Positions 11,413-33,963 of a stretch of DNA of 33,963 bases are shown here, in pieces. The stretch is from the NCBI GenBank assembly GCA_947486375.1, contig CANKTP010000020.1:1-33963 (forward strand), given 5' to 3'. The translations under genes and the position numbers were made by a program. The notes under the pieces were generated by a model. That model was not told the DNA's origin. It saw only the letters and a program-made list of their open reading frames with translations, and made no database searches. The stretch comes from Candidatus Hydrogenedentota bacterium (GTDB lineage Bacteria; Hydrogenedentota; Hydrogenedentia; Hydrogenedentales; GCA-2746185). Each line of letters begins with the position of its first letter. Within the stretch, counting starts at the first letter, position 1.

Positions 11413-13191
11413 CTACTGCCCGGCGGCTGGCGCTGCGGCGGGTTGCGCGGCGAGGACGAGGTCGGGGGCGGGGTTCGTGGTGAACTCGGCGACTTGTTCG
11501 GCGGTCTCGGCTTTCCAGACGCCGATGGCGCCGGTCCAGCACCCGGCGACGACTAGGGAATCCTTCGCGCCGAAGCGGGTCTGGTAGGCCCAATCGGCGA
11601 GCGCGGGATAGGTCGTGAGGGCCGTGCCGTTGATGTCCCAGCGTTTCGCCGTGCGGTCGATGCCCGCGGTGACGAGTTGTCCGGCGTCGCTGAAGTCGAT
11701 CGACTGGGCCGATCCGGCATGCGCGCCCCAGGAACGAATCAGCGCGTTGGTCCAGGTGTCCCAGAGGATCACGTTGCCCTCGATCCCGGTTGTCGCGAGG
11801 ATGGCGGAATCGTAGCTGAAGGCCATGTCGTTGATGCCGGCGTTGTGGCCGCGCAGGTTCTCGACGGGGCGCCCGTTGGCGGCCTGCCACAGGTAGAGAC
11901 CGCCGCTGCGGTCCGCGCTCGCGAGGAGCTCGCCGTCGGGAGAAAACTTGATGCTGTTGATCCAATCGGTGTGGGTCTCGATGACGTAAAGCTCGGCGGC
12001 GTCCTTCGTGCTGTAGACGCGGACCTTGCGGCTGGGACCGCCGACGGCGACCATCGAGTGGTCGGGGCTGATGTCCGCCGCGAGGACGGTGTCGAAGTTT
12101 TTGCCGAATTCGCCGATGCGCGCGGCGGTGCGCACGTCCCACAAGATGACGCTGCCCGAATCGCCTTCCTCGCCGCCGCCGACGAGGAGTATCTCGCCAT
12201 TCGCGCTAAAGCTCATCGTGTAGACGTCGCCCTCGGGGTAGGGCAGGGCACCGATGAGAGTCAGCTTTTCCAAGTCGTACAGGAGGATTTGGTTGTTTCC
12301 GCCCACGGCGAGCAAGGGCGCGATGGGGCTGGACGCGATCGCACGCGCAACCACTCCGCGCTCGGTCTTTTCATTGAGGGAGGCAAGGGCGACGGCGGGC
12401 ATCGGCGGGGGGCCGTCGCCGATTTTCGCGGCAACAAAGGCCGGCGCGTCGCTGCTGGGGCCCGCGGAAGCCATGACCATCGACTCGGATCCCGCGGTGG
12501 CGAGCGTCCCGCCCGCGATCCATTGGCGGATGACTTCGATCTCGGCGGCGGTCAGGGGATCGCCGGAGGGCGGCATCTTGGGTTCTTCGGTTTGCCGGAT
12601 CAAGCGCAAGAGGCGGCTGCCGTCGGGCTGTCCGGGATTGAGGACCTTGCCGGAGCTTCCGCCCGCCATCGCCTTGTCGAAGGTCATCAGCGAGAGGCCG
12701 CCGCGCATCTTGTCGTCGTCGTGACACTTCACGCAGCGGGCTTGGAAAATCGGCGCGACGTGATCGGCGAAGGTCACCACCGGGGCGGAAGCATTCTCGA
12801 CAGCCATCATGCCCTCGGGGGCCATACCCTCGGCGGGCGCGGCGGCCTGGACTTCCGGCGCGACCATGCCCTCGGCCATCGCGAGCGCTTTCATGATGTC
12901 GACGAAGGGGTTCAGTTTTGTCTGGAACGCGGCGATCTGCGCGTCGAGTTCGCCCGACTGTGCGCGGAGTTGCTGCGACTGCGCCGCGAGGGTCTCGGCC
13001 TCGGCCTTCATCTCGCGGACGCGCGCGGCCAACTGGGCCGGATCAAGCTGGAGTAATTGCGTCAGCACATCGTCCGCCGTCGGGGCGGGCGGGGGCGCGG
13101 GGGCGGCTTCCTGGGCGCGGACGATCTGCGCGGGAAACAGCAGGGCCGCGATCGTGATCGCGGTGATGGTTGGTCTAAGGCGTTCTAGCAT
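11413..13191 (-). CDS. Secreted coiled-coil / planctomycete-type cytochrome c (PSCyt1-like) / WD40 beta-propeller protein
   Basis: Signal peptide. Haem site FQARCVKCHDDDKMRGGLSLMTFDKAMAGG with MPPSGDPLTAAEIEVIRQWIAGG. WD repeats ending IKFSPDGELLASADRSGGLYLWQ, IDFSDAGQLVTAGIDRTAKRWDI. Confidence 0.88.
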   Translation of the reverse strand: MLERLRPTITAITIAALLFPAQIVRAQEAAPAPPPAPTADDVLTQLLQLDPAQLAARVREMKAEAETLAAQSQQLRAQSGELDAQIAAFQTKLNPFVDIMKALAMAEGMVAPEVQAAAPAEGMAPEGMMAVENASAPVVTFADHVAPIFQARCVKCHDDDKMRGGLSLMTFDKAMAGGSSGKVLNPGQPDGSRLLRLIRQTEEPKMPPSGDPLTAAEIEVIRQWIAGGTLATAGSESMVMASAGPSSDAPAFVAAKIGDGPPPMPAVALASLNEKTERGVVARAIASSPIAPLLAVGGNNQILLYDLEKLTLIGALPYPEGDVYTMSFSANGEILLVGGGEEGDSGSVILWDVRTAARIGEFGKNFDTVLAADISPDHSMVAVGGPSRKVRVYSTKDAAELYVIETHTDWINSIKFSPDGELLASADRSGGLYLWQAANGRPVENLRGHNAGINDMAFSYDSAILATTGIEGNVILWDTWTNALIRSWGAHAGSAQSIDFSDAGQLVTAGIDRTAKRWDINGTALTTYPALADWAYQTRFGAKDSLVVAGCWTGAIGVWKAETAEQVAEFTTNPAPDLVLAAQPAAAPAAGQ

Positions 13192-13228
13192 TCAACGAAT
13201 CTTCCGTGGGTATCGACTGCGTATGAGG

Positions 13229-13918
13229 TCAGTTTGATGCCGGGGGCGCGGGAGCTGCCTCGGCGGGCGCGGGTTCCGCGGGCGCAGGAGCGACCTCAGC
13301 CGGTGCGGGTTCTGCGGGCGCTGCCTCTGCCGGTACCGGTTCCGTTGGCGCGGGGGCCATCTCGGCGGGCACAGGCTCGGCCGGGGCAGGCGCTGCTTCC
13401 GCCGGTACCGGTTCTGTTGGCGCGGGGGCCATCTCGGCGGGCGCAGGCGCTGCTTCCGCCGGCACCGGTTCTGTTGGCGCCGGGGCCATCTCGGCGGGTA
13501 CGGGCTCGGCCGGTGCCGGTGCTGCTTCCGCCGGTACCGGTTCTGTTGGCACGGGGGCCATCTCGGCGGGCGCGGGCTCGACCGGGGCGGCTGGCTCCAA
13601 TGGCGCTTCAGGCGCGGCGGGCGGCGTCATCGCCGCAGCGAGTGCCGAGGTGAAGGACTCGATGGTGGAGACGCGGGCATTGAGCGCCGCGGATTGGGCC
13701 TCGAGGGTGTCCGCGTTTGTTCGCAGTTCGGTCGCTTGCGCGGCCAACTGGTCGATCTGCGTGCGCATCTCGACGATCCGCGCGAGCAACGCATCGGTGC
13801 CGACGGCGGCCAATTGCTCCATGACGGCGTCGATGTTGGGCGGCGGGTCTTGGGCGCGCGCGGGTGTGGCGATCATGGCCAGCGCGACGGCAAGCGAGAG
13901 GAACGATATAAGTTTCAT
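13229..13918 (-). CDS. Secreted coiled-coil protein with Pro/Ala/Glu-rich repeat C-terminus
   Basis: Start MKLISFLSLAVALAMIATPARAQ (13918) with a GGGAG RBS. Coiled-coil followed by repeats of APAEPVPAEMAPAPTEPVPAEAAP. Confidence 0.8.
   Translation of the reverse strand: MKLISFLSLAVALAMIATPARAQDPPPNIDAVMEQLAAVGTDALLARIVEMRTQIDQLAAQATELRTNADTLEAQSAALNARVSTIESFTSALAAAMTPPAAPEAPLEPAAPVEPAPAEMAPVPTEPVPAEAAPAPAEPVPAEMAPAPTEPVPAEAAPAPAEMAPAPTEPVPAEAAPAPAEPVPAEMAPAPTEPVPAEAAPAEPAPAEVAPAPAEPAPAEAAPAPPASN
13320..13590. repeat. In-frame coding tandem repeat, about four copies with 72/57/72 bp periods
   Basis: Copies begin at 13320, 13392, 13449 and 13521 (gctgc[ct]tc[tc]gccgg[tc]accggtt[ct][ct]gttggc...). 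Period differences are multiples of 3. Confidence 0.85.
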
Positions 13919-13959
13919 GAGGCGATCTCCCTGCAAGTTCATCAGGTCCATTGCGGGAC

Positions 13960-16392
<2,433 letters not shown>

Positions 16393-16438
16393 CGAATATT
16401 CCTCGATCTCTTACCAATACGTCCGACCAACCATGCAC

Positions 16439-16523
16439 CGTCATTCCCGCGCAGGCGGGAATCCACGCTTCGCACCGGGCGCGTCGAGAATTCCCGTGGA
16501 TTCCCGCCTTCGCGGGAATGACG
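16439..16523. repeat. Intra-operon long inverted repeat (CATTCCCGCGxAGGCGGGAATCCA family)
   Basis: Left arm 16439-16467 cgtcattcccgcgcaggcgggaatccacg. Right arm 16495-16523 cgtggattcccgccttcgcgggaatgacg. 29-bp arms with 1 mismatch and a 27-nt spacer. Confidence 0.92.
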
Positions 16524-16591
16524 ATTTTCGACTGGCGCCTTGAAAGTATGTCTATGCGTCTATTGTTCGCTTCCCGAGTGTCGGGATGGCC

Positions 16592-18937
16592 TTATTGTCC
16601 GCTGGAGAACCGGCTCTTGCGCGCGGGCTGATCGGGCGCGGCCTCGACCGGCGGGGCCGCCTGCAACTCCGCGGGCAGCGGCGCGAACACGGCAAGCTCG
16701 GCGCCGGGCGACTGGTGACGGATGATCTCGCCATTGCTCGTGAGCGTGGTGGACATCACCATCGCGTAATGTTTTCCCTCGGGCGCGTCGGCCGTCGCGG
16801 TGACGGTGAATTTCAGTTCTGTCGTGGCTGAATTTACCTGGAGGACCGGGGCCGTGATGCCATTGGGGAAATTGCCCATTGCGACATCGTAGGTACCCTC
16901 GAAGGGTGCGTTCTGGACGACCTTCACGGTGACATCGACCGACTTCCCTTTTTCCAAGGGCGTGTTCGGGACTTGGAAAGCAACGTACGGCTCGGAAACC
17001 TGGACCGGTGAGAACGGGGTACACACATCCCAGCCGGCGCTATTGCCCATCACGACGAATTTCGCCTCGCCCACGGCAGCCTCGGCTCGCGCCTCGAGAT
17101 ACAGCGGGATCTCGTTGACGCCCTCGGGGATCGTGGCAGTCCCGGCGCCGAGTCCATTCGGGAGCCAGGGGATTCGCAGCGTGATAGGGGCCGTGAACCC
17201 TTCGGCGCGAACGGCCTCGATGATCAGGTCCTTGCTGCTCCCCTTGACGACTGGTACGGCGGAGGGGCGCATGCGTATCTCGAAGGGCGCCTTGTCGGAG
17301 ACGGCCATGGCGAGCTTGTCGACGACGCGGTCTTGAAAAATGGTCAGGTTCTCGCCTTCGACCAGGACCACCTGGTGGCCGAAATGCCCGGTGACCTGGG
17401 GCGCGGCCGGATCAGGGCCAAAGGTGCCGACAACGTCCACGAGCGCGCCGGCGCGTGGGGCATCGGGCGCGCCGTGAAGCACGACCGGCCATACGCCGAC
17501 TCCCGCGGGGATCGGCAGGAACTCCGCCGTCACGCCCGCAGGCAGATTGTTGAAGGCCACTTGAAGCTCGCCGTCGAACTCGGTGCGGTTCGCCTGGAGA
17601 TAGAGAAACGTCCGGTTGCCCTGCGGGACCGTGACGGCCGCATCGAGATTCTCCGCGGCCTTGAATGTCAGGCCCGCCTTGACCGGCGCGATTTCGAGCC
17701 GGTACGAGAACGTCGGGCCACCCCGTTTGAGATGGTCCACAATCCACGCTTTGTAGACGCCGTCCTCGGGCAGCGTCAGACGGAAATAACTGTCGACGCC
17801 CGCAGCATCGTCATCGCCGGCGATTTGGCCGCCGGAGGGGGCGTTGAGATACAGGATCGAATCGAGGGGAGAGCCGAGGTGGCGCGCCCAAATCCGAAAG
17901 TCGTAGACCGATCCGGCCTTGGCCTCGAATTGGAACCAGTCGATGTCACCGGGTTCGCCGATGACGCCGTCGAATGCACCGGGCACCTGGCCGGCCGTCG
18001 GTTGGTCGGCGGCGTTATTGGGCTCGGCCTCGAGCACGCCCGGGAATTCGCTCAGCCGAAAGGGCATCTCTGTGGGCGCGATGCCCTGATCGCTCGCGGG
18101 CTCGATGAACGAGGTGCCGGGGTTCCCCGCCGGCACCGCGATCGTCTGCGGCACAAGCCCGGAATCGCCCAGCCATGTGACTTGGGCCTGCGTGCCGGGG
18201 ACACCGCCCAGCGGCGTCATGCTTAATGGCCGGGGAAACGACCCGACGTGCAGGCGGTAGAAATAACTGTCGTTGCCGCCATAGGCCGCCTCGCTCACGG
18301 CGAGCAGATGGCGTCCCGCTTCCGTCGCGGTGAACACGAACGCGGCGTCCTGGCGCATGAGCGGCGTGTCGTCCTCGGAGACCAGCTCGAGGCCGGTCGG
18401 GCCGAAGAGACGAAGTTTCGAGTCGAACAGGGCCAAGCCCAGGCGCAGCGCCTCGACCTCGACCGCGACGCGCGCGCCGGGTTGCAGATCGACCGCGAAG
18501 AAATCGACGTCCTCGTAGGGGACATTGCCGTTGATGACCGTGGGCAAGGCCAAGGCCTGTGCCGTCTCGGCCGCGTTGTTGGGTTCCGCTTCCTGGATCT
18601 CGGGAAGGTTCCCTACGCTGAACAGCTTGAGGTTCGAGATGCCCGTGGCCGTGCGGACGCGCATGGCGTGCGTGCCGACGCGGCAGTCCGGGGCGATGCG
18701 CAAGAGGGCCTTGGCCACTCCGCCCTCGATGCCGCGAAACTCGACGAGCGAAATCCCCTGGTCATGGAACATGATGTCCACGGTGTCCTGGAGGTTGCCG
18801 CCCTGAAACGCGACTTCCACGTCCAGGCCGCGCTGCGCGCCGCGCGGCATGATGTTGCCCAGCTGCGGATCGGCCGCCCAAGCGGACACGCACGCGAGGG
18901 CGAAGGCCCACGCGCACGCGATTGCACGAAGCTTCAT
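16592..18937 (-). CDS. Secreted protein with PPC (pre-peptidase C-terminal-like) domains
   Basis: Signal peptide MKLRAIACAWAFALACVSAWA. Two 'EAEPNNAA' PPC-type domain starts (QEAEPNNAAETAQALALPTVINGNV; LEAEPNNAADQPTAGQVPGAFDGVIGEPGDIDWFQFEAKAG). Confidence 0.82.
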   Translation of the reverse strand: MKLRAIACAWAFALACVSAWAADPQLGNIMPRGAQRGLDVEVAFQGGNLQDTVDIMFHDQGISLVEFRGIEGGVAKALLRIAPDCRVGTHAMRVRTATGISNLKLFSVGNLPEIQEAEPNNAAETAQALALPTVINGNVPYEDVDFFAVDLQPGARVAVEVEALRLGLALFDSKLRLFGPTGLELVSEDDTPLMRQDAAFVFTATEAGRHLLAVSEAAYGGNDSYFYRLHVGSFPRPLSMTPLGGVPGTQAQVTWLGDSGLVPQTIAVPAGNPGTSFIEPASDQGIAPTEMPFRLSEFPGVLEAEPNNAADQPTAGQVPGAFDGVIGEPGDIDWFQFEAKAGSVYDFRIWARHLGSPLDSILYLNAPSGGQIAGDDDAAGVDSYFRLTLPEDGVYKAWIVDHLKRGGPTFSYRLEIAPVKAGLTFKAAENLDAAVTVPQGNRTFLYLQANRTEFDGELQVAFNNLPAGVTAEFLPIPAGVGVWPVVLHGAPDAPRAGALVDVVGTFGPDPAAPQVTGHFGHQVVLVEGENLTIFQDRVVDKLAMAVSDKAPFEIRMRPSAVPVVKGSSKDLIIEAVRAEGFTAPITLRIPWLPNGLGAGTATIPEGVNEIPLYLEARAEAAVGEAKFVVMGNSAGWDVCTPFSPVQVSEPYVAFQVPNTPLEKGKSVDVTVKVVQNAPFEGTYDVAMGNFPNGITAPVLQVNSATTELKFTVTATADAPEGKHYAMVMSTTLTSNGEIIRHQSPGAELAVFAPLPAELQAAPPVEAAPDQPARKSRFSSGQ

Positions 18938-18947
18938 TCGGCGTTCC

Positions 18948-20267
18948 TTACGCAATTAGGTTCCGCACGGCTTTGCCGTCGCGGACAATGTCGATGGGAC
19001 GATTGCCCGGGCTCATCAGCTTGCGGGCCGGATCGATGCCCAGTTGCGTGAAAATCGTCGCCGCCAAGTCCATGGGCGAAACCGGGTCTTGGGTCGGCTC
19101 GGCGCCGCGGGCGTCAGTACGGCCGTGGATCGTGCCGCCCTTGATGCCGCCGCCAGCCAGCAACGCGCTGAAGGCCTTGGGCCAATGGTCGCGTCCGCCG
19201 TCCTTGTTGAGGCGCGAGGTGCGGCCGAACTCGGAGCACATGACGATGAGGGTCTTCTGGAGCAGGCCGCGCTCGTTGAGGTCGTTGATGAGCGCCGCGA
19301 GCCCCTGGTCGACCGCGGGCAACTGCCCGCGCATCGCGTCGCGAATGTTGACATGGTGATCCCAGCCGCCATCGACCACCGTGATGAACCGCGCGCCCGC
19401 CTCGACAAGTCTCCGCGCCAACAGGAGCCGCTGGCCGAAGTAGCTGCGACCGTAACGGTCGCGCATCTCGGGGGCCTCGGCGGCGACGTTAAAGGCCTCG
19501 CGTGCCGTTTGGGACGAGATCAACGCATAGGCGCGTTGGTAATAGCTGTCCATCGCATCGAGCGAGTCGCCCTTCTCGAGTTCGCGGAAATGGCTGTCCA
19601 CGGACGCGAGCAAGCCCTTGCGGCTTTCCATGCGGACCGGATCGACGCCCGAGGCGAGGTTGAGGTCGCGCACTTGGAACCCGTCGGCCTGCGGTTCGCC
19701 GCCGACGCTAAACGCACCATAGGCCGCGCTGAGATAGCCCGTGCCCATGAAGGGATCGCCGACCCCGGGGATCGCGATGTACGCCGGGAGATCGTTGCGC
19801 GGGCCGTACTCGTGCGAAACCACCGAGCCCATGCTCGGGTAGACGATCGCGGGGCTCGGGCGATAACCCGTCAGCATGTTGTGCGCGCCGCGCTCGTGCG
19901 CCGCCTCGCCGTGCGTCATCGAGCGGATGATGGCCATCTTGTCCGCCGATGCGGCCAGTTGCGGCATCAGGCCGCTGATCACGTCGCCCGTGTTCGTATT
20001 GGCGACGCCGAGCTCGCCGCGATATTCGATCGGGGCGAAGGGCTTGGGATCGAAGGTGTCCATATGGCTCATGCCGCCGGACATATAGATAAATATGACG
20101 GATTCAGCCGCGGCGGTCCCGGCTGCGGGAGTCCCCGCCATGGCCTGCATCTTGAAGAAGTCGCCCAGCGTCAGCCCGAGACCGGAAAGGAGACCGACCT
20201 TGAGGAAGTCCCGCCGAGTGGGGGGGCCGGGACACGTGCATCCCTCGAAGTCCGAAGAGTGATTCAT
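18948..20267 (-). CDS. DUF1501 domain protein (Tat-exported, alkaline-phosphatase/sulfatase-like fold)
   Basis: Twin-arginine PTRRDFLKVGLLSGLGLTLGDFF. SVIFIYMSGGMSHMDTFDPKP, EFGRTSRLNKDGGRDHWPKAFSALLAGGGIKGG. Start MNHSSDF at 20267. Confidence 0.92.
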   Translation of the reverse strand: MNHSSDFEGCTCPGPPTRRDFLKVGLLSGLGLTLGDFFKMQAMAGTPAAGTAAAESVIFIYMSGGMSHMDTFDPKPFAPIEYRGELGVANTNTGDVISGLMPQLAASADKMAIIRSMTHGEAAHERGAHNMLTGYRPSPAIVYPSMGSVVSHEYGPRNDLPAYIAIPGVGDPFMGTGYLSAAYGAFSVGGEPQADGFQVRDLNLASGVDPVRMESRKGLLASVDSHFRELEKGDSLDAMDSYYQRAYALISSQTAREAFNVAAEAPEMRDRYGRSYFGQRLLLARRLVEAGARFITVVDGGWDHHVNIRDAMRGQLPAVDQGLAALINDLNERGLLQKTLIVMCSEFGRTSRLNKDGGRDHWPKAFSALLAGGGIKGGTIHGRTDARGAEPTQDPVSPMDLAATIFTQLGIDPARKLMSPGNRPIDIVRDGKAVRNLIA

Positions 20268-20605
20268 GAAAGCAACACCTTTCCCAAGTTGATACACCTC
20301 TACACGTTATCCAGTATACACCAATTGCCTATCGCGGTGCAACTCAACGCCAAAACGGACGGATGCACGTTGTGGCCATGATGCATAACCCTTGCGATAT
20401 CAACGGCTTGGATTCCCATGAGAACCGCATGGATGCAGCAAATGAGCACCTATATGAATTCCCGGAGGAACGATTGGGTTCCATCCCCCATGGGAGGCCC
20501 GGAACTCGCAGGCGGATTGCGCCGCAGCGCGGAGGGCACCGAGGGCAAAAGTTGTGGGGCAAATCGCGGGCGGGTCTTTAACGGCGGCAGGATTCGGCGT
20601 GCGGG

Positions 20606-25007: not shown

Positions 25008-27527
25008 TCATTTTCCCTCACCAGCGAGCCACCACTGCAGCAGCGTCCGTAGCGCCTGCGGCGGATTGGTCGGGCCGGTCCTTCCGAACACATCTTCCCG
25101 ATTGAGGCCGTGGCAATTGCCGCAGACCCTAATCTCGCCCGACTTGAAAGTGAGCCAATAGCGCTCGCGCACGGCGGGCGTGCCGTCGGCCTCGGTGGTA
25201 TGCCACGACAACGCGCGGCCCGCCGGGACGAATGCCGCCATCGATCCGTCGTCCCCGAGCTGGACAGAAGCCTCGGGTGCGCCGGGGTCGGTCGGGTTCA
25301 CGAAGGAATCCATCGGGCGCGCAAGGACGCGCCGGCCGGGACGGGTGTATCCCCGGAGTTGCTTGCCCTCGAAGAACTGCATGTAGCCGATCTCTTTCGG
25401 GATTTCGGTTTCCTCGGCGCTGACGTGATCGCTCCACGCAATCTTGAGGTTGTAATCCTGTTGCGTGTCGGCGCGCACGGTGACATCGCGGCTCACCAGC
25501 AGGGCGAGATCGTTCGCATCGAGATAGGCCCGAAGGTCCTCGATGCCGCCGGCGCCGAGTTCCTCGGCGATTACGGCCTGTTCGATCTCGGGGACTTCCT
25601 CGAGCGGGGCGTCGGAAGGGATGGGCTGCGTGCGCACCTCGATCGCCTGGAGCTGCCACAGCGGACCGTCGTATTCCACATCGCGGTAGCGCGCATTGTC
25701 GAAGTAGGCGATCGACTTCACGATCGGGGCGACAAGGTCGGGACCCGGAACAAGGTGGCCGCCATCGCCGGGAACGAGCTGCGTGATCTCGAAATTGTAC
25801 CGGCTGGAAAGGACGAACGGGGCCGGCCCGGGGGGATTGTCCACGACCTCGTCGACCTGCCGCGCCGTGTTGCTGTGCGACGCCCAAATCGTCCCATCCT
25901 CGAGGACGACCGGATCGCGAAACATCCCGGCATGCCCCGGCGGCACGGGTTCCGCGTCGTCGACGGGGAAGGCCGTCTCCGGGTGAGTGTGGAACCGCGG
26001 CCGAATATCATCCGCGTTCGCGCCCGGCGGGGCGACGAGCGACACGAGTTGCCCGGACGCATGCGTGCCGAATTCGGCGCAGCGAATCCCATAGTATGTG
26101 CCCGGCTCGACGGGGCTCTCGCAGATATGCATGAAGATGTCGAGGGAATCCTCGTTGCCGGCATACTCGAGATACGTCCTCGCGGGCCCGATGTAGCCCG
26201 CCAATTCGTGCCGGCCAAGGTGGTTGAGGATCTCGAGGCCGGTGCCATCCTGCGATATCATCCACGGGAAGAAATGATTGAAGGTATGCACCGTTTCCGT
26301 GGGGTCGTAGTCCGCGTCCCAAAGCGGATCGACCGTCTCCGGATCGCCGGGGCCGTGAAGACCCCTAAGTTCCGGAAACACCTCGTCGGCGGGATCGAGG
26401 GCGTGCGAGGCATCGCTGTCCTCGCTGTCGAAGGTGAAGGACTCGAACGTGGATTCTTGCCCAAGGACAAGTTGCCGTATGTCGGCGTCCGCCTGTTGGT
26501 CGCGCTGGAGGTGGTCCCAGCGAGTGAAGATGACCCGGCCGAAGCTGTCGACGAACGGCGAGAAATCGCCAGAGGGACTGTGGTCGAGTATTTGCAAGCC
26601 GGAACCGTCCGCATTCATCTCCCACAATCCGCTGACGATGTCGGCGGATTCGTATTCGTCGCGCTGCGGATAGAGCATTCGGTCGCCATTTCGGGGACGG
26701 TCGCTCGTGAACAGGATGCGGCCGTCCGAGGCGTAGATCGGCGAGACGTTGTTGTAGTCCTCCGGCTGCGCGAGTTTGACGATCTCGACGGCCTCGTCCT
26801 GGCCAAATCCCGTGATCTCGTAAATCTGGAAGTACACCGGATCGATATCGTTCTGAATCGTCCCCCCGATGACCATGCTGAAAAGGGCCTTCGTCCCGGA
26901 CCAATGCGGCTGCGGGTCGCGGACCGCGATCTCTTCCCCGGGTCCCGTTCCGAATCCCGCCTCGGCGGTAAGATTCCGAAGCGTACCGTCCGAGTAACGG
27001 ATGTAAAGGTCGCCCCCGCGCGGCGCGCTGCCCACGCCGCCCTTGTGCGTGCCGAAGGTTGACATGAGGTTCGCGAAATCGTTGCCGAACGGGGTCTGTG
27101 TCACGAACATAATGGCGTTCGGGACTTCGCCTTCACCTTCTCCCTCGCCCTCACCTTCTCCCTCTCCTTCGCCTTCTCCCTCTCCTTCGCCTTCGCTCGA
27201 GTTGTCGGTCACCGTGATCAACACGCTCTCTGTGTCCGATCCCACGGTGGTCGTCACGGTGAGACGGACCGTGTACGCTCCAGGCGTATCGAAAGTATGT
27301 AGCGGAGATTGCTCGGTCGAAGTCTCGCCATCGCCAAAATCCCAGCCGGACTCGATGTTTCCCCCAGATCCGGCCGTACTTTCATCCGTGAACCGAACGG
27401 CCAACGGGGCCGGCCCGGTGGAATCGGACGGCGAAAACGCCGCCGTGGGCAGTACCCGGGGACATCCCCCCAATGAAATTGTGGCCAGAACGGAAAAAAA
27501 ACAGATCACGGGCGTCTTCAAGTTCAT
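25008..27527 (-). CDS. Lipoprotein with PKD domain, (EG)n linker and hydrazine-synthase-alpha-like propeller/monohaem C-terminus
   Basis: Start MNLKTPVICFFSVLATISLGGCPRV (lipobox LGGC). PKD text WDFGDGETSTEQSPLHTFDTPGAYTVRLTV. EGEGEGEG linker. FSPFVDSFGRVIFTRWDHLQRDQQAD. C-terminal CGNCH haem c motif. Confidence 0.82.
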   Translation of the reverse strand: MNLKTPVICFFSVLATISLGGCPRVLPTAAFSPSDSTGPAPLAVRFTDESTAGSGGNIESGWDFGDGETSTEQSPLHTFDTPGAYTVRLTVTTTVGSDTESVLITVTDNSSEGEGEGEGEGEGEGEGEGEGEGEVPNAIMFVTQTPFGNDFANLMSTFGTHKGGVGSAPRGGDLYIRYSDGTLRNLTAEAGFGTGPGEEIAVRDPQPHWSGTKALFSMVIGGTIQNDIDPVYFQIYEITGFGQDEAVEIVKLAQPEDYNNVSPIYASDGRILFTSDRPRNGDRMLYPQRDEYESADIVSGLWEMNADGSGLQILDHSPSGDFSPFVDSFGRVIFTRWDHLQRDQQADADIRQLVLGQESTFESFTFDSEDSDASHALDPADEVFPELRGLHGPGDPETVDPLWDADYDPTETVHTFNHFFPWMISQDGTGLEILNHLGRHELAGYIGPARTYLEYAGNEDSLDIFMHICESPVEPGTYYGIRCAEFGTHASGQLVSLVAPPGANADDIRPRFHTHPETAFPVDDAEPVPPGHAGMFRDPVVLEDGTIWASHSNTARQVDEVVDNPPGPAPFVLSSRYNFEITQLVPGDGGHLVPGPDLVAPIVKSIAYFDNARYRDVEYDGPLWQLQAIEVRTQPIPSDAPLEEVPEIEQAVIAEELGAGGIEDLRAYLDANDLALLVSRDVTVRADTQQDYNLKIAWSDHVSAEETEIPKEIGYMQFFEGKQLRGYTRPGRRVLARPMDSFVNPTDPGAPEASVQLGDDGSMAAFVPAGRALSWHTTEADGTPAVRERYWLTFKSGEIRVCGNCHGLNREDVFGRTGPTNPPQALRTLLQWWLAGEGK
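27130..27196. repeat. Hexameric coding repeat encoding the (Glu-Gly)n linker
   Basis: ccttcaccttctccctcgccctcaccttctccctctccttcgcc..., (CCYTCN)n-like, in frame with the 25008..27527 gene. Confidence 0.88.
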
Positions 27528-27700
27528 CGGATGGCTTCTCCCCAATGTTGGCGATTGTCGCCGGTCAATCAAATTGTACCATGCGTTTCGGTGCGCAAAA
27601 TGCCCGTCCCATGGGTCCCATAAACCTTTTTCCCACTGGAACAGTCTATATGACGTACAATGGCCGCAGCCGCGCCGAAATGGCGCCGGAGGATGATTCA

Positions 27701-29371
27701 ATGGCTACTCGGACAAAACTAATGGGCGGTGCCATGATCGGCCTTGCCGCGGTGGGCTTGGCGTCGATATTTCTGCTGGCCGGCTTGGGGCTCCGCGAGA
27801 CGCTCGGCTTGGCCTCCCCCGGTCCCGTGCCCCTGACGCTGCCCGTGCTCCGCCTAATGCCCGAATCCGCCGAGGTGGCCTGCGCCATTCCCCCGGTGGC
27901 CGATGTGCGCGACCGGTTCCTTGCGCTTGCCAAGCGCTTTCATCCGGAAGACGATCTGAATTCCGCCTACGATGAATTCGTGGCCGAGATTGCCGAGACG
28001 CTTGAGGCGGACACCGCCGCAACCCTCGAGGACCTCCTGGCCGCGAAAGGCATCGACGCATTCCAGCCCTTGGCCATGTTCGCCGACACGGACGCCCTCG
28101 AAGTCGCGGCGGCGGATGCGGAAGAATCCGCGCCCGAGAGCGAAGGCCTTCACCGCATTCCGCCGGGCCTCGCGCTCGTGATCGGGTGTGCCGATATCCA
28201 TGTGGCGCAGACGACCCTCGAGTCGCTGATCCCCGCCGAGGTGGCGCACTACACGGACGAGTCGTACAACGGCGTTTTCATTCGCACCTACGGCGACGCG
28301 TTCTGCTCCTACTATTTCGACGAGGACCGCATGGTCATCGGGAACTCGCTCGAGTTCGTCAAGGACATCGCGAAGCGCAGGACGGATCCCGCCAAGGTGC
28401 GCTATGGTTCGGCGGATTGTCCCGCGGGCGCGGCGGACGAGTTGGTCGCGCTGGTGCGGATGGATCGCGCGGCAGGACGTCTCGCCGATGTGACGGAGTC
28501 CCTCGCCGGCGATGAATCGCATGCCTTCCTCGAAGAGTTGCTGACGTTGCAGGACGGCTTCTCGAGCGATCCCCTCGTGGTGACCTTGGGCGAACACGAC
28601 GATGCATTCGAGCTTTTGGCCCGCGCCGATCTCGCGCAACACGAAGGCCTGCGCACCACGCTCGGGAAACCTTCCCCATTGCGTCTCGCCCAACTCCTGC
28701 CCGAGGACACGCTCGGCTTCATGAGCCTTCGGTTCAACCAGGAGTCGCGCGCGCTTCTCGTCAAGGCATTCGCAAACAACTTTCCCGAGACCGAGGGCGA
28801 CGAGGCCTTCCAGTTCATGACCGCGACCATGTTCAGCGATTGGATGACCATCATCGACGACGAGATGACCATCGCGGTCACGGAAATTCGCGACGACGAA
28901 GTCGAGGGCATCGGCATGCTCGCCGTGAACAACAAGGATCAATTGTCCACGCTTGTCTCGGCCATCCCGGGCGAGACCGTCGAGACCCATCGCAACGTCG
29001 ACCTGCGGAAGCTGCCCTTCGACGAGGCCGGCGGCATTCACTACGCCATCGCGCGCAACGTGTTTGTCATGAGCACGGACATCGAGCAACTTCGAGGCGT
29101 GGTCGATCGGCTGCTCGATCGCGAAACCTCGGCCCTGTTTGCCAGCTTCACGCCGCCCATCGACGAAGACACGCCGCGATACGGCGCGCTCGTCCTGCGT
29201 TCGGACTTGCTCGCCAAGGCCGGGATCGACTTCCTCGACAGCGATGATGCAAACACCGGCGTCGGCGGCATTGTGCGAGACGCACGCCTCACCGGCGACG
29301 TCGAGGGCACCTGGCTCGCCACCCGACTCGCCGTGTACCTCACTCCTCCGGCCTCCGCGCAGGCCGACTGA
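27701..29371 (+). CDS. Membrane-anchored/secreted protein, DUF3352-like
   Basis: Start MATRTKLMGGAMIGLAAVGLASIFLLAGLGL with GGAGG RBS. Long soluble domain with LPEDTLGFMSLRF and similar text; family assignment is tentative. Confidence 0.6.
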   Translation: MATRTKLMGGAMIGLAAVGLASIFLLAGLGLRETLGLASPGPVPLTLPVLRLMPESAEVACAIPPVADVRDRFLALAKRFHPEDDLNSAYDEFVAEIAETLEADTAATLEDLLAAKGIDAFQPLAMFADTDALEVAAADAEESAPESEGLHRIPPGLALVIGCADIHVAQTTLESLIPAEVAHYTDESYNGVFIRTYGDAFCSYYFDEDRMVIGNSLEFVKDIAKRRTDPAKVRYGSADCPAGAADELVALVRMDRAAGRLADVTESLAGDESHAFLEELLTLQDGFSSDPLVVTLGEHDDAFELLARADLAQHEGLRTTLGKPSPLRLAQLLPEDTLGFMSLRFNQESRALLVKAFANNFPETEGDEAFQFMTATMFSDWMTIIDDEMTIAVTEIRDDEVEGIGMLAVNNKDQLSTLVSAIPGETVETHRNVDLRKLPFDEAGGIHYAIARNVFVMSTDIEQLRGVVDRLLDRETSALFASFTPPIDEDTPRYGALVLRSDLLAKAGIDFLDSDDANTGVGGIVRDARLTGDVEGTWLATRLAVYLTPPASAQAD

Positions 29372-29462: not shown

Positions 29463-29492
29463 TCTCTCCCCCCGGGAGAGGGCAGGGAGAGG
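29463..29492. repeat. ctctcccccc-gggagaggg intergenic palindromic repeat
   Basis: Stem ctctccc-ccc-gggagag followed by a second gggagaggg phrase; resembles a common interspersed intergenic repeat. Confidence 0.5.
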
Positions 29493-29570
29493 GAGGGTCC
29501 TCCGACGGCCCTCGTTTCGTAGTTTGTCCTGACCAAAGCACCGAATTTTCAAGGCAAGCAGACACTACAA

Positions 29571-29601
29571 CCCCGAAAGTTTCCCTTGCCAAATTTCGGG
29601 G
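29571..29601. promoter_or_regulatory. Possible leader stem-loop upstream of the 29692 gene
   Basis: ccccgaaa (29571-29578) pairs perfectly with tttcgggg (29594-29601), loop 15 nt. ggcaag (29553-29558) can pair with cttgcc inside that loop (29585-29590). Confidence 0.4.
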
Positions 29602-29691
29602 AAAGGATTATCGTAATCGAAGGTTGCGATATCCTCGGTCCGGATTTCTGGGCCGACGGTCATTCATTCCGTGCTTGGGAGGTCGGTCGGG

Positions 29692-30309
29692 ATGCCGGAT
29701 GCTGCGCTCACTCTCCTATCGTGGAGCTTCGCGCTCCTCGCGTTCAGTGGTTCCCAGTTGATCGAGTCCAAGGCCGCGCCTTCGACAAATGACGCCCCCG
29801 CCGCCAAGCCCGCCCTACCGATCGAGATTAGTGTGGTTGCGGAACGTTCTCCCTCCGCCATCGGCGAGGAGTTCGAGGTCAAGGCGGTCGCGGTCCTGAC
29901 CGAGCCCTATCCCGCCGTGGTCATTTCCTTCCAATCGGCGCACGGCCCCATCGTTATCGTGGAAGGCGAAGACACCCGCCACACCTATCCCGCCGTCAAG
30001 CACAGGCTCGAAGCCCGGGCCACCGTCAAGACGACCGCGGCCGGCAAGGCCGAGCTACGCGCGGTTGCTTCTGTCCAAGACGACCTCGGCCGGGCCATCT
30101 ACGCCCCCGCCGCGTCCCTCTACATCGTCGCGGCGACCAACCGCGTGGTCACCGGCAGCAAAGGCTATCTCGAACTCGAGCTCGGACTGCTGAAGCAACA
30201 ACTCGACGCGGGCGAAATCTCGAAGACCCAATACGACGAGGCAGTAGGCAAGGCGATGCGCGGAGGTGCGACCACCTCGCGAACGCAAGTCGACGAACCC
30301 AGAGAGTAG
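29692..30309 (+). CDS. Small secreted protein, stand-alone paralogue of the N-terminal domain of the downstream giant protein
   Basis: MPDAALTLLSWSFALLAFSGSQLIES signal, then a beta-rich domain ending LYIVAATNRVVTGSKGYLELELGLLKQQLDAGEISKTQYDEAVGKAMRGGATT. GGGAGG RBS upstream of ATG 29692. Confidence 0.75.
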   Translation: MPDAALTLLSWSFALLAFSGSQLIESKAAPSTNDAPAAKPALPIEISVVAERSPSAIGEEFEVKAVAVLTEPYPAVVISFQSAHGPIVIVEGEDTRHTYPAVKHRLEARATVKTTAAGKAELRAVASVQDDLGRAIYAPAASLYIVAATNRVVTGSKGYLELELGLLKQQLDAGEISKTQYDEAVGKAMRGGATTSRTQVDEPRE

Positions 30310-30352
30310 TGCAATCATGGCCCACGTATTCACCAGCTGCGGAGGAATTCCA

Positions 30353-33300
30353 ATGAATGCGCATTCGGATAGTCCACGAAAACTTTTACTCATTGTTGCG
30401 ACGATCCTAGCGATGACATTCGCGGCGCTGCCCGCGAGTGCCACGAAACCGCCCGCAGTCGTCGAGATGGACCTTTCCGTCGATGAATCGGCGCTCGCCT
30501 CGGACCGCGATGCTACCTTGACCCTGGTCGCGGTGCCCATAGTGGACATCCGGAAAGCCCGCTTCGAATTCTCCGTGGCATACGGGGACGGCCGTATCTC
30601 CGGCACGGTGGCCGAAGACCTTGGGGACATCGTCGCCGGCGTCTCCTACACCATTACGTCGCGCTTGGCGCTGACCGGTTTAGGGAAAGTTGAAGTGCGC
30701 GTTACGGCCTTGGGCGTCGATACCTCGAGCGGCACGCTGTTTCGCCGGGCCACCTGCCTCTACGTCGTGTCCTCTGGGGATCAAGTCTCTTCCAGCAACG
30801 AAGGATACATTCCGGCACACCTCGACGCCTTGAAGCGCCGCGCCACCAACGGCGGACTGACTAAGTCCGCGCTCGACGATGAAGTTCATCGGGCGATGAC
30901 GGGCGGGGCAAAGACTGAAGTGATCGCCGGCAAACAGGGCAAGCAGGCCGGCATCGGCATTCAGGGAACGGCGAGCTGGACCGACAGCGGCGGGAGCACA
31001 CACCCAGCGCGCAACGTCACGGTGGAGGTTCACGACGCTGCCGATGCATCTCCGGATCCCCTTGCAACGACCACGGCATCGGCCTTCGATGGGTCGTTTG
31101 GCTTTTTCGGGATTGACGATTCTCCGGAAGAACTTCGGGATATTTTCATCCGTATCAAGGCGACAAGCGCGTTCGCCACAATCAAGGGCGCATCCGGCGG
31201 GAACATACACGCCGTCGACTCGGATACGGCCGAAGACGTCGAGGATGGTGGATTCCGCTTCTTTGGCGTGGTCGCGAACAACACGGATGACAACGCGCAG
31301 GCCTTCTCTGTTCATGATGGACTAGTGTTGATCATCGGCTATGCCGACAATTTCGGCGCCATCCCGCGAATCGACACTATTTTTCCAGGAACAGGGACAT
31401 TCTTCCGTCCGGCGACCAGCGAGATACACTTGGTGAAGGGCGATTGGCCAGACTGGGACATCATCGGCCATGAGTACACCCACTACTTCCAACGCCAGAA
31501 GGCAATTAGCGCAAGCCCCGGCGGGGGCCATGCCATTTTGCAAAACATGGCGGAGACGCTTACCAAGGACAACGGCGTCAGGCTGGCTTGGTCCGAAGGA
31601 CATGCCACCCATTTCGGTATCGCCGCGCAGATCGACCAAGGCGCATCCTCTCTGGGCGTGCCGGAGGTCGGGGACACCGCCTATATCGACACCATCGACG
31701 GGGGCGGGTTCACCTACGACATGGAGATCAATGACAGCAAGGGCGAAGGCACTGGCGAGGACAATGAGTTGTCGGTGCAACGCATCCTCTGGGACATTTA
31801 CGACGGTCCCGCAGATGCCAACGATCAGGTGGCGACGAGCAACTTCACGCTGACGAGCCTGATGATCGACAACACGGTCGTCACCTTGTCCCAGTTCTGG
31901 AATGCGCTAACGGCGACGACAGATACCCGGCAAGACGTCACGTACGGGTGCATCTTTGGCGACCACAATGTCGCGCCGGAACTAACGGCGCCCGCCGACG
32001 GGGCCGAGTTCTTGAGTGTCGACCCGCCTCCGGCGTTTCGTTGGATTCGCAACGGCGCTGGTCCCTCGAATCGCCTGAACAAGTTTACTGTCGAGTTCTG
32101 GAATGAGGACTTCACCAGCAACATCTTTACTTCGCCTGAGGTGGACGACCCTATGTTCACCCCAACGGACGAGCAGTGGGACACCATCCTCGCCGGCGGA
32201 GATGTGATCAAGTGGGTCGTTCGCGGACGAAATACAACCGCGGCCGAGACGGGAACATACGTCAGTTGCGACCGGACGATCGGCGGGGTGGACGTCGGGT
32301 TTGTCATAGACACCACGGGGAGCATGGGTCAAGAGATAGACGGAATCAAGGCTGCATTGACCGCCTTCGTCACCGCCCTCGAGGAGGAAGAGATTACGCC
32401 GTCGATCAACATTGTGACATTCGACGATTCTCCCTTCTCTCGAATCATTTCGGACGATCTTGTGGCGATTCAGGCAGAGGTCGATTCGCTTTTCGCCGGT
32501 GGGGGGGGCGATTGTCCGGAGGGTTCCGTGGAGGCGCTCAACTTGGCGGCGAAGAACGTCCGGGCGGGCGGGCGTATCCTGTTTGCCACGGATGCCGACG
32601 CGCACGATGGGCTTAATATACCGGCCACGATTGCCGCCCTGCGCGGGAAGGGCATCCGGGTTGATGTGTTGCTCTCGGCAAGTTGTTCGATTTTCAAGGA
32701 ACTCGGAAATTGCAACGATGCCGATTGCGCGGGCGATCAACTAGACAAAACTGTCGGGACTTGCGATCTCCCGGTATGCGACGATCCGATTGTCTATCCT
32801 CCCGACTATCCGACGGACGCGGTCGTCGTGTTCTCCGCGATTGCGGCGGAGAGCGGTGGCGTGTTCGCCTTCATCCCAGAGGTCAATCGCGGCGACCCAA
32901 CCCGCTTCAACAACGTCGCGTTGAACGCGATGCTAGGCACGGTATTTCCCGGCATTCTCGACCTAAACCCGGCGAAGGGGGCCCCCAATAGTACCCTCAA
33001 CGTCGTCTTTACGGGGTCGAACACGAACTTCAACGGCGAGAGCACGGTTGCTTTCGGTGGGACCGGCATCGCCGTGAACTCGACGGAAACCCTGAGTGCC
33101 ACAAGCCTGCGGGCAAACGTTAGCATTGCGGAAGATGCAGGGCAGAGTTTCCGCGACGTCACGGTGACGACGACCCTCGGTGACGATTCCATCGAGGAGG
33201 CCACGGGAACGGGGGCCTTCGAAGTCGAAATCTCCTTTGTTTCGGATCTCACCAGCCTGTTCCCCTCGTCCGGCGCGATCGGCGACACCCTGAACGTTGT

Positions 33301-33963
33301 CGTCACGGCGTTCCTGTCGAACTTCGACGAGACGACCACCATCGACTTCGGTACGGGGGTAACGGTGAACTCCTTTACCCCGAACAGCGCCACCGAGGGT
33401 ATTGCAAACATCACGATTACGGGGAGCGCGGCGCCGGGCTTCCACCAAGTGACTATTGGCGGGGACTTCGGCACCATATTCGACTCGTCCCCTGGGTCAT
33501 TCCTTGTCACCTCCGCGGATCTCGCCGAAGGCTTCCCGCGGATCGTTACGGTTACGCCCAATATCGCGTCGCCCGGAGGCAACGCCACGATTACCGTGGT
33601 AGGCGAAAACACAACCTTCGAGGACGGGGTGTCCTTTGGCACCGTAAGCGGCGAAGGCGTGACCGTCGACACCACGACGGTCAACTCGGCGACCGTGGCC
33701 GAACTCGAGATTACCGTAAGCCCGGATGCCCCGACCAGCTTCCGCGACCTAAGCGTGACTACCGGCGGCGAAGTGGCGACCGCCCTCAACGCGCTCGAAA
33801 TCGGCAACAGCCCCCCTGTGGCCGACGCCGGCGACGATCAGTTGATCACCGTCACCAGCACCGGCACGACCGACGTCACCCTGGACGGTTCCGGCTCGAC
33901 CGATCCGGGCGGCATCACTGCCTACGTGTGGACGGGTACTCCCGACCCCGCGGACGTGGCGGC
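30353..33963 (+). CDS. Giant secreted multidomain protein: N-domain / HExxH metalloprotease / vWA / IPT-TIG-like repeats / PKD (3'-truncated by the window end; absent from the ORF track)
   Basis: ATG 30353 with GGAGGA RBS. Hand translation gives 1203 codons without a stop: signal MNAHSDSPRKLLLIVATILAMTFAALPASA; DIIGHEYTHYFQ...LAWSEGHATHFG; VDVGFVIDTTGSMGQEIDGIKAAL...GGGGDCPEGS; SPPVADAGDDQLITV...LDGSGSTDPGG. Confidence 0.93.
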   Translation, partial: MNAHSDSPRKLLLIVATILAMTFAALPASATKPPAVVEMDLSVDESALASDRDATLTLVAVPIVDIRKARFEFSVAYGDGRISGTVAEDLGDIVAGVSYTITSRLALTGLGKVEVRVTALGVDTSSGTLFRRATCLYVVSSGDQVSSSNEGYIPAHLDALKRRATNGGLTKSALDDEVHRAMTGGAKTEVIAGKQGKQAGIGIQGTASWTDSGGSTHPARNVTVEVHDAADASPDPLATTTASAFDGSFGFFGIDDSPEELRDIFIRIKATSAFATIKGASGGNIHAVDSDTAEDVEDGGFRFFGVVANNTDDNAQAFSVHDGLVLIIGYADNFGAIPRIDTIFPGTGTFFRPATSEIHLVKGDWPDWDIIGHEYTHYFQRQKAISASPGGGHAILQNMAETLTKDNGVRLAWSEGHATHFGIAAQIDQGASSLGVPEVGDTAYIDTIDGGGFTYDMEINDSKGEGTGEDNELSVQRILWDIYDGPADANDQVATSNFTLTSLMIDNTVVTLSQFWNALTATTDTRQDVTYGCIFGDHNVAPELTAPADGAEFLSVDPPPAFRWIRNGAGPSNRLNKFTVEFWNEDFTSNIFTSPEVDDPMFTPTDEQWDTILAGGDVIKWVVRGRNTTAAETGTYVSCDRTIGGVDVGFVIDTTGSMGQEIDGIKAALTAFVTALEEEEITPSINIVTFDDSPFSRIISDDLVAIQAEVDSLFAGGGGDCPEGSVEALNLAAKNVRAGGRILFATDADAHDGLNIPATIAALRGKGIRVDVLLSASCSIFKELGNCNDADCAGDQLDKTVGTCDLPVCDDPIVYPPDYPTDAVVVFSAIAAESGGVFAFIPEVNRGDPTRFNNVALNAMLGTVFPGILDLNPAKGAPNSTLNVVFTGSNTNFNGESTVAFGGTGIAVNSTETLSATSLRANVSIAEDAGQSFRDVTVTTTLGDDSIEEATGTGAFEVEISFVSDLTSLFPSSGAIGDTLNVVVTAFLSNFDETTTIDFGTGVTVNSFTPNSATEGIANITITGSAAPGFHQVTIGGDFGTIFDSSPGSFLVTSADLAEGFPRIVTVTPNIASPGGNATITVVGENTTFEDGVSFGTVSGEGVTVDTTTVNSATVAELEITVSPDAPTSFRDLSVTTGGEVATALNALEIGNSPPVADAGDDQLITVTSTGTTDVTLDGSGSTDPGGITAYVWTGTPDPADVA

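Follow-up and report, generated by a model that had tools for sequence, protein, structure and literature searches.

Why would a gene for a stand-alone copy of a giant protease's N-terminal domain lie just upstream of the protease gene itself, and what might the small protein do? The window, which is the whole stretch of DNA that we analyzed (33,963 nucleotides), is an entire contig (G000:C20) from a member of the Hydrogenedentota. The two genes lie head to tail at the window's right end, which falls inside the giant protease gene:

29586..29614, + strand: promoter-like site upstream of the gene pair, from a consensus scan only, which is not evidence of function
29692..30309, + strand: small exported protein of 205 amino acids, a free copy of the protease's N-domain (ATG start at 29692, stop at 30309)
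30353..33961, + strand: giant exported metalloprotease of at least 1203 amino acids, cut by the contig end (ATG start at 30353)

The start codon of the small gene is preceded by GGGAGG (29677-29682), and that of the giant by GGAGG (30341-30345); an alternative in-frame start for the small gene is the GTG at 29671. When we re-checked the window, the coordinates and both protein sequences quoted in an earlier, sequence-only reading of this DNA were correct. That reading also considered co-transcription of the two genes likely, and they probably do form one transcription unit: they are on the same strand, just 43 nt separate the small gene from the start of the giant, and a site scan found no terminator-like site between them. 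Between the pair and the preceding open reading frame (27473-29371) is a GC-rich palindromic stretch (29464-29515, CTCTCCCCCCGGGAGAGGG...), which resembles a dispersed intergenic repeat. Further upstream, on the minus strand, the window contains a Planctomycete-type cluster (11413-20297) of PSCyt1/WD40, PSCyt2/PSD1, PPC-domain, and DUF1501 proteins.

First, the small gene does encode a free-standing copy of the protease's N-terminal domain (N-domain). BLASTP aligns it to the giant at 52.8 bits (E = 3e-12, 28% identity over 163 amino acids). Shuffled copies stayed well below this score: of the 1,922 that could be aligned at all, the best had 25.4 bits. When six free copies were compared to six giant N-domains by profile-profile alignment (hhalign), the match was full length (162 columns), with a probability of 100 and E = 1.9e-40. 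Together, these three comparisons rule out chance similarity. The sequence-only reading had claimed homology across the whole domain and had suggested a profile comparison as the way to check it, with a lack of significant profile-profile similarity as grounds for giving it up; the claim held up. The homologous part of the giant is:

30437..30925, + strand: the giant's N-domain, made up of an Ig-like sandwich and a hairpin; its homology to the small protein is seen by BLASTP, profile-profile alignment, and model

The AlphaFold2 model of the small protein, which was built with 21 relatives (pLDDT 92), has a beta-sandwich and then two helices (pLDDT mostly above 90):

29821..30156, + strand: Ig-like beta-sandwich of the small protein (AlphaFold2 mean pLDDT 92; generic Ig-like matches in PDB)
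30166..30258, + strand: SHOCT-like two-helix hairpin of the small protein (AlphaFold2 helices at residues 126-139 and 145-156; Pfam SHOCT below its cut-off)

A two-helix hairpin near the C-terminus is a trait of the SHOCT domain (PF09851), and the model of the small protein has one. Against PF09851, the window's small protein scored 12.1 bits, which is under the gathering threshold of 27, and three relatives' free copies scored 17.6 to 19.9 bits (E = 6e-4 to 3e-3), which are all below 27 as well. The start of the giant's model shows the same sandwich and hairpin elements as the small protein. Because the 610-residue model of the N-domain with the protease has a pTM of 0.86, the N-domain may pack on the rest of the protease. 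Using Foldseek, the small-protein model matched generic Ig-like folds only (E down to 5e-5), and profile searches against PDB gave nothing useful.

Second, the small gene is consistently paired with the protease. Two separate profiles, for the N-domain and for the protease, found the identical 9 of 68 genomes of the phylum, and profile search found neither in the other 59; the chance of this co-occurrence is 4e-8. Seven of the nine genomes contain a stand-alone copy, which in every case is directly upstream of a protease and on the same strand, with about 40 to 260 nt between the open reading frames as called. One of the pairs (G061) was recovered by a profile built without that genome's sequence. 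The genes that flank the pair differ between genomes, so the conserved unit is two genes. The sequence-only reading had called for a survey of other genomes and had asked whether the small protein occurs mostly apart from any protease: all seven free copies lie beside one, and so does a copy from Clostridia. In G021, a single small gene is followed by tandem proteases; this tandem array (L024, L020) is split over contigs. In G012 (L023:6761-11500), the N-domain and the protease are in one frame, which is interrupted once, by a TAG directly behind the hairpin. This TAG may be a natural split or a sequencing error.

At two loci, G020 and the second locus of G033 (G033:C90), the protease has no free copy beside it (the contig extends only about 540 nt upstream in G020). 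These loci would fit a small gene that is just a passenger: a duplicate of the domain that has stayed next to the gene it came from and does little, or something unrelated to the protease. Tandem duplicates of this sort form readily. However, intact reading frames have been kept beside the protease in seven genera at roughly 20-30% identity, the hairpin is better conserved than the rest, and adjacency is 7 of 7 with no copies elsewhere. We therefore consider a passenger quite improbable.

The N-terminus of the window's small protein is hydrophobic (LLSWSFALLAFSGS); at the position of the lipobox Cys of several relatives, it has a Ser. We defined the lipobox by a simple pattern, [LVI][AST][GA]C following a hydrophobic segment at the N-terminus. 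It is present in four of the seven free copies from Hydrogenedentota (G007, G018, G024, and G061) and in the Clostridia copy (L061). It is absent from the window's copy, which reads LAFSGS, and from the copies in G021 and G033. The sequence-only reading described the small protein as secreted, which has to be qualified: the copies with a lipobox are probably membrane-anchored.

Besides its N-domain, the giant has a beta domain marked by WTDxxGxxHP, the zinc-protease region, a von Willebrand factor A domain, and TIG/QH-alpha-like repeats; a PKD domain begins before the contig ends. Full-length relatives have 1294-1416 amino acids. Its main motifs and domains are:

31469..31489, + strand: zinc-protease motif HEYTHYF (HExxH is unchanged in all aligned rows, 7 from Hydrogenedentota and 19 from many phyla)
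31589..31600, + strand: WSEG motif, whose Glu is presumed to be the third zinc ligand (W, E, and G are invariant in the HExxH alignments)
32297..32689, + strand: von Willebrand factor A domain (Pfam VWA_4, E = 3.7e-21)

HExxH and the downstream Glu are both invariant across the 19 rows from many phyla, which suggests that the giant is a gluzincin. None of the peptidase models in Pfam and NCBIfam matched the catalytic region with an E-value of 0.1 or less, and a profile search found no relative of it in PDB. The protease region (30932-31960, HExxH...WxEG) is conserved across many phyla and may deserve its own peptidase family. We found nothing relevant in the literature on proteases of Hydrogenedentota. 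At their C-termini, the giants of G007, G018, G024, and G061 have a Cys, then a hydrophobic segment, and then an Arg; in G021 and G033, the giants finish in dockerin-like repeats. The Cys-hydrophobic-Arg tail, which is also found in G012 and G020, resembles a C-terminal sorting signal.

A scan of GTDB contigs for the N-domain with the protease region identified 33 loci, and about 10 groups beyond Hydrogenedentota have the same protease with the N-domain at its start. The fused N-domain occurs without a free copy in Planctomycetota, Acidobacteriota, Nitrospinota, Myxococcota, Lentisphaerae, CSSED10-310, and Saprospiraceae, among others. Among 392 genomes of Planctomycetota and 297 of Acidobacteriota, there were no convincing free copies: the strong matches were all protease-size frames. 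Two weak short matches were dropped (L133 is a generic Ig-like protein, and the frame in L129 is unsupported as a gene). Since the fused form is widespread and these two samples lack a convincing free copy, the free form is probably derived from the fused form. Free copies are known mostly from Hydrogenedentota; the additional one is from a Clostridia metagenome-assembled genome (L061), where a lipoprotein with the sandwich and the hairpin, whose frame is broken in the assembly by a frameshift, ends 2 nt before a protease. This was the only Firmicutes pair in 399 sampled genomes, and no relatives were found on viral contigs or plasmids. In a phylogenetic tree, a single change separates the free copies from the giants' N-domains in 90% of bootstrap trees (support 71/84), and the window's copy is a long branch. 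The tree thus favors, with moderate support, one old duplication as the source of the free copies, and it does not favor a duplication specific to the window.

Homologous proteases in several lineages lack the N-domain (L057, L065, L073, L077, and L079), which weakens, in its strict sense, the suggestion from the sequence-only reading that the domain is a propeptide or chaperone. A foldase or export chaperone that acts on the giant before or during folding would fit the upstream position of the small gene and its probable co-transcription, but with proteases that lack the N-domain or the partner in many lineages, this role seems highly improbable. The main rival to the explanation that we favor, in which small protein and protease are co-expressed partners, is a trans-acting inhibitor or immunity protein: the free copy would mimic the N-domain and block the active site, and so protect the producer's envelope until the protease is outside. 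Precedents are CTLA-2, crammer, and BCPI, propeptide-like inhibitors (I29) that occur as separate proteins (PMC4089206). Inhibition would also fit the gene order, with the small protein first, the ability of a lipoprotein to guard the membrane, and the modeled N-domain, which may pack on the rest of the protease. However, that the N-domain is a cleaved propeptide is a supposition. Also, the five homologous proteases above do without the N-domain, and the N-domain proteases of G020 and G033:C90 do without a free copy. On balance, an inhibitor seems somewhat unlikely.

Different parts of the domain are conserved in the two proteins. Among the free copies, mean identity is 40% in the hairpin versus 25% in the sandwich; among the giants, it is 31% versus 38%, so that the sandwich is better conserved. 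The hairpins of a free copy and its own giant are more alike than those of permuted pairs (p = 0.0056, n = 7), although this test was post hoc, as the pattern was noticed before testing. The sandwiches of own pairs are not more alike than those of permuted pairs (p = 0.25, n = 7). We take the likeness of own-pair hairpins as no more than suggestive; co-adaptation, a shared ligand, or gene conversion would each account for it. If the domain is a shared docking module, then both proteins would attach to the same third component, for example a surface polymer or the S-layer, and would not contact each other. Lineage-matched hairpins would be expected from a common, lineage-specific ligand, and the lipobox-free copies of G021 and G033 accompany giants that end in dockerin-like repeats. 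However, the flanking genes vary by genome, and none that could supply such a ligand is conserved; we view shared docking as unlikely.

Relatives of the protease are also found in Mollicutes, in 11 of 120 genomes from the order of an Acholeplasmataceae genome. All 12 of the Mollicutes protease loci that we examined adjoin a small protein that is a lipoprotein or has a single transmembrane segment, upstream at 8 loci and downstream at 4. Four of these neighbors have hairpin-like segments (L103-L106). The simple lipoproteins were rejected as homologues of the N-domain (hhalign probability of 0.1), and the transmembrane-anchored proteins showed a weak match in the hairpin that was not significant (probability of 6). 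At L104, L109, and L072, two tandem anchored small proteins lie beside one protease, as if the partner were duplicating. We treat the Mollicutes pattern as supporting context only.

We favor a partnership, although we stop short of calling it probable: the small protein would be made together with the protease, would in most cases be tethered to a membrane, and would use its hairpin to dock or regulate the protease. An old duplication of the protease's N-terminal domain would have yielded the small gene, which would be expressed together with the giant metalloprotease. The exported small protein would fold into an Ig-like sandwich that bears the two-helix hairpin, and in most relatives an N-terminal lipid anchor would tether it to the membrane. 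The hairpin and the stretch after it would then bind the protease, or else the site that is bound by the protease's own N-domain, and the small protein would thereby hold the protease at the envelope or set its activity. We infer the binding, its site, and its effect on the protease by building on the homology, the predicted fold, the gene order, the co-occurrence in the genomes searched, and the lipobox in several relatives. In particular, the adjacency in 7 of 7 genomes with the small gene upstream, the L061 pair, the conservation of the hairpin and its match within pairs, and the Mollicutes neighbors all support a partner. Several observations count against it: the copies in the window, G033, and G021 lack a lipobox; the giants of G007, G018, G024, and G061 have a C-terminal membrane segment and would need no tether; and own-pair likeness of the hairpins could reflect gene conversion or a common third partner. 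Also counting against it, the single SHOCT domain assayed by the authors of that family did not oligomerize (PMC3581485), the Mollicutes partners have no significant similarity to the N-domain, and the proteases of G020 and G033:C90 have no partner.

Overall, the conserved pair points to an undescribed two-part cell-surface protease. An unannotated small gene becomes a testable partner of a large exported protease from an apparently unclassified peptidase family, in a phylum that is known mostly from metagenomes. If the binding is real, then a metalloprotease would join the few proteases that are under the control of their own N-terminal domain in free form, and one could propose what a SHOCT-like hairpin does in an exported protein. 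It is doubtful, but conceivable, that the system is widespread, with a tethered Ig-plus-hairpin protein controlling a metalloprotease of the unclassified family; the partner would have arisen by duplication in Hydrogenedentota and would have arisen separately, or been replaced, in Mollicutes.

How does the pair compare to known systems? The small protein has its beta-sandwich in common with generic Ig-like domains (TRAP, the FixG-related 2r39, and CARDB 3idu), but at 7-16% identity, no functional inference is possible. As in SHOCT domains (PF09851; PMC3581485), which are usually C-terminal, the free copies have two short helices; unlike in SHOCT, the hairpin here follows an Ig-like sandwich in the same chain and recurs within a protease. 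The giant shares HExxH and a downstream Glu-Gly motif with gluzincin-type zinc metalloproteases, and its fold weakly resembles that of the M1 insulin-regulated aminopeptidase (4pj6), but unlike known gluzincins, its catalytic region lacks a Pfam or NCBIfam peptidase model or a PDB relative by profile. Finally, the inhibitors of MEROPS family I29 (CTLA-2, crammer, and BCPI; PMC4089206) have another fold and act on another class of protease, and many of the homologous proteases here lack the domain. Nevertheless, those inhibitors and the pair that we describe share the same arrangement: a stand-alone gene that is homologous to the N-terminal region of a protease.
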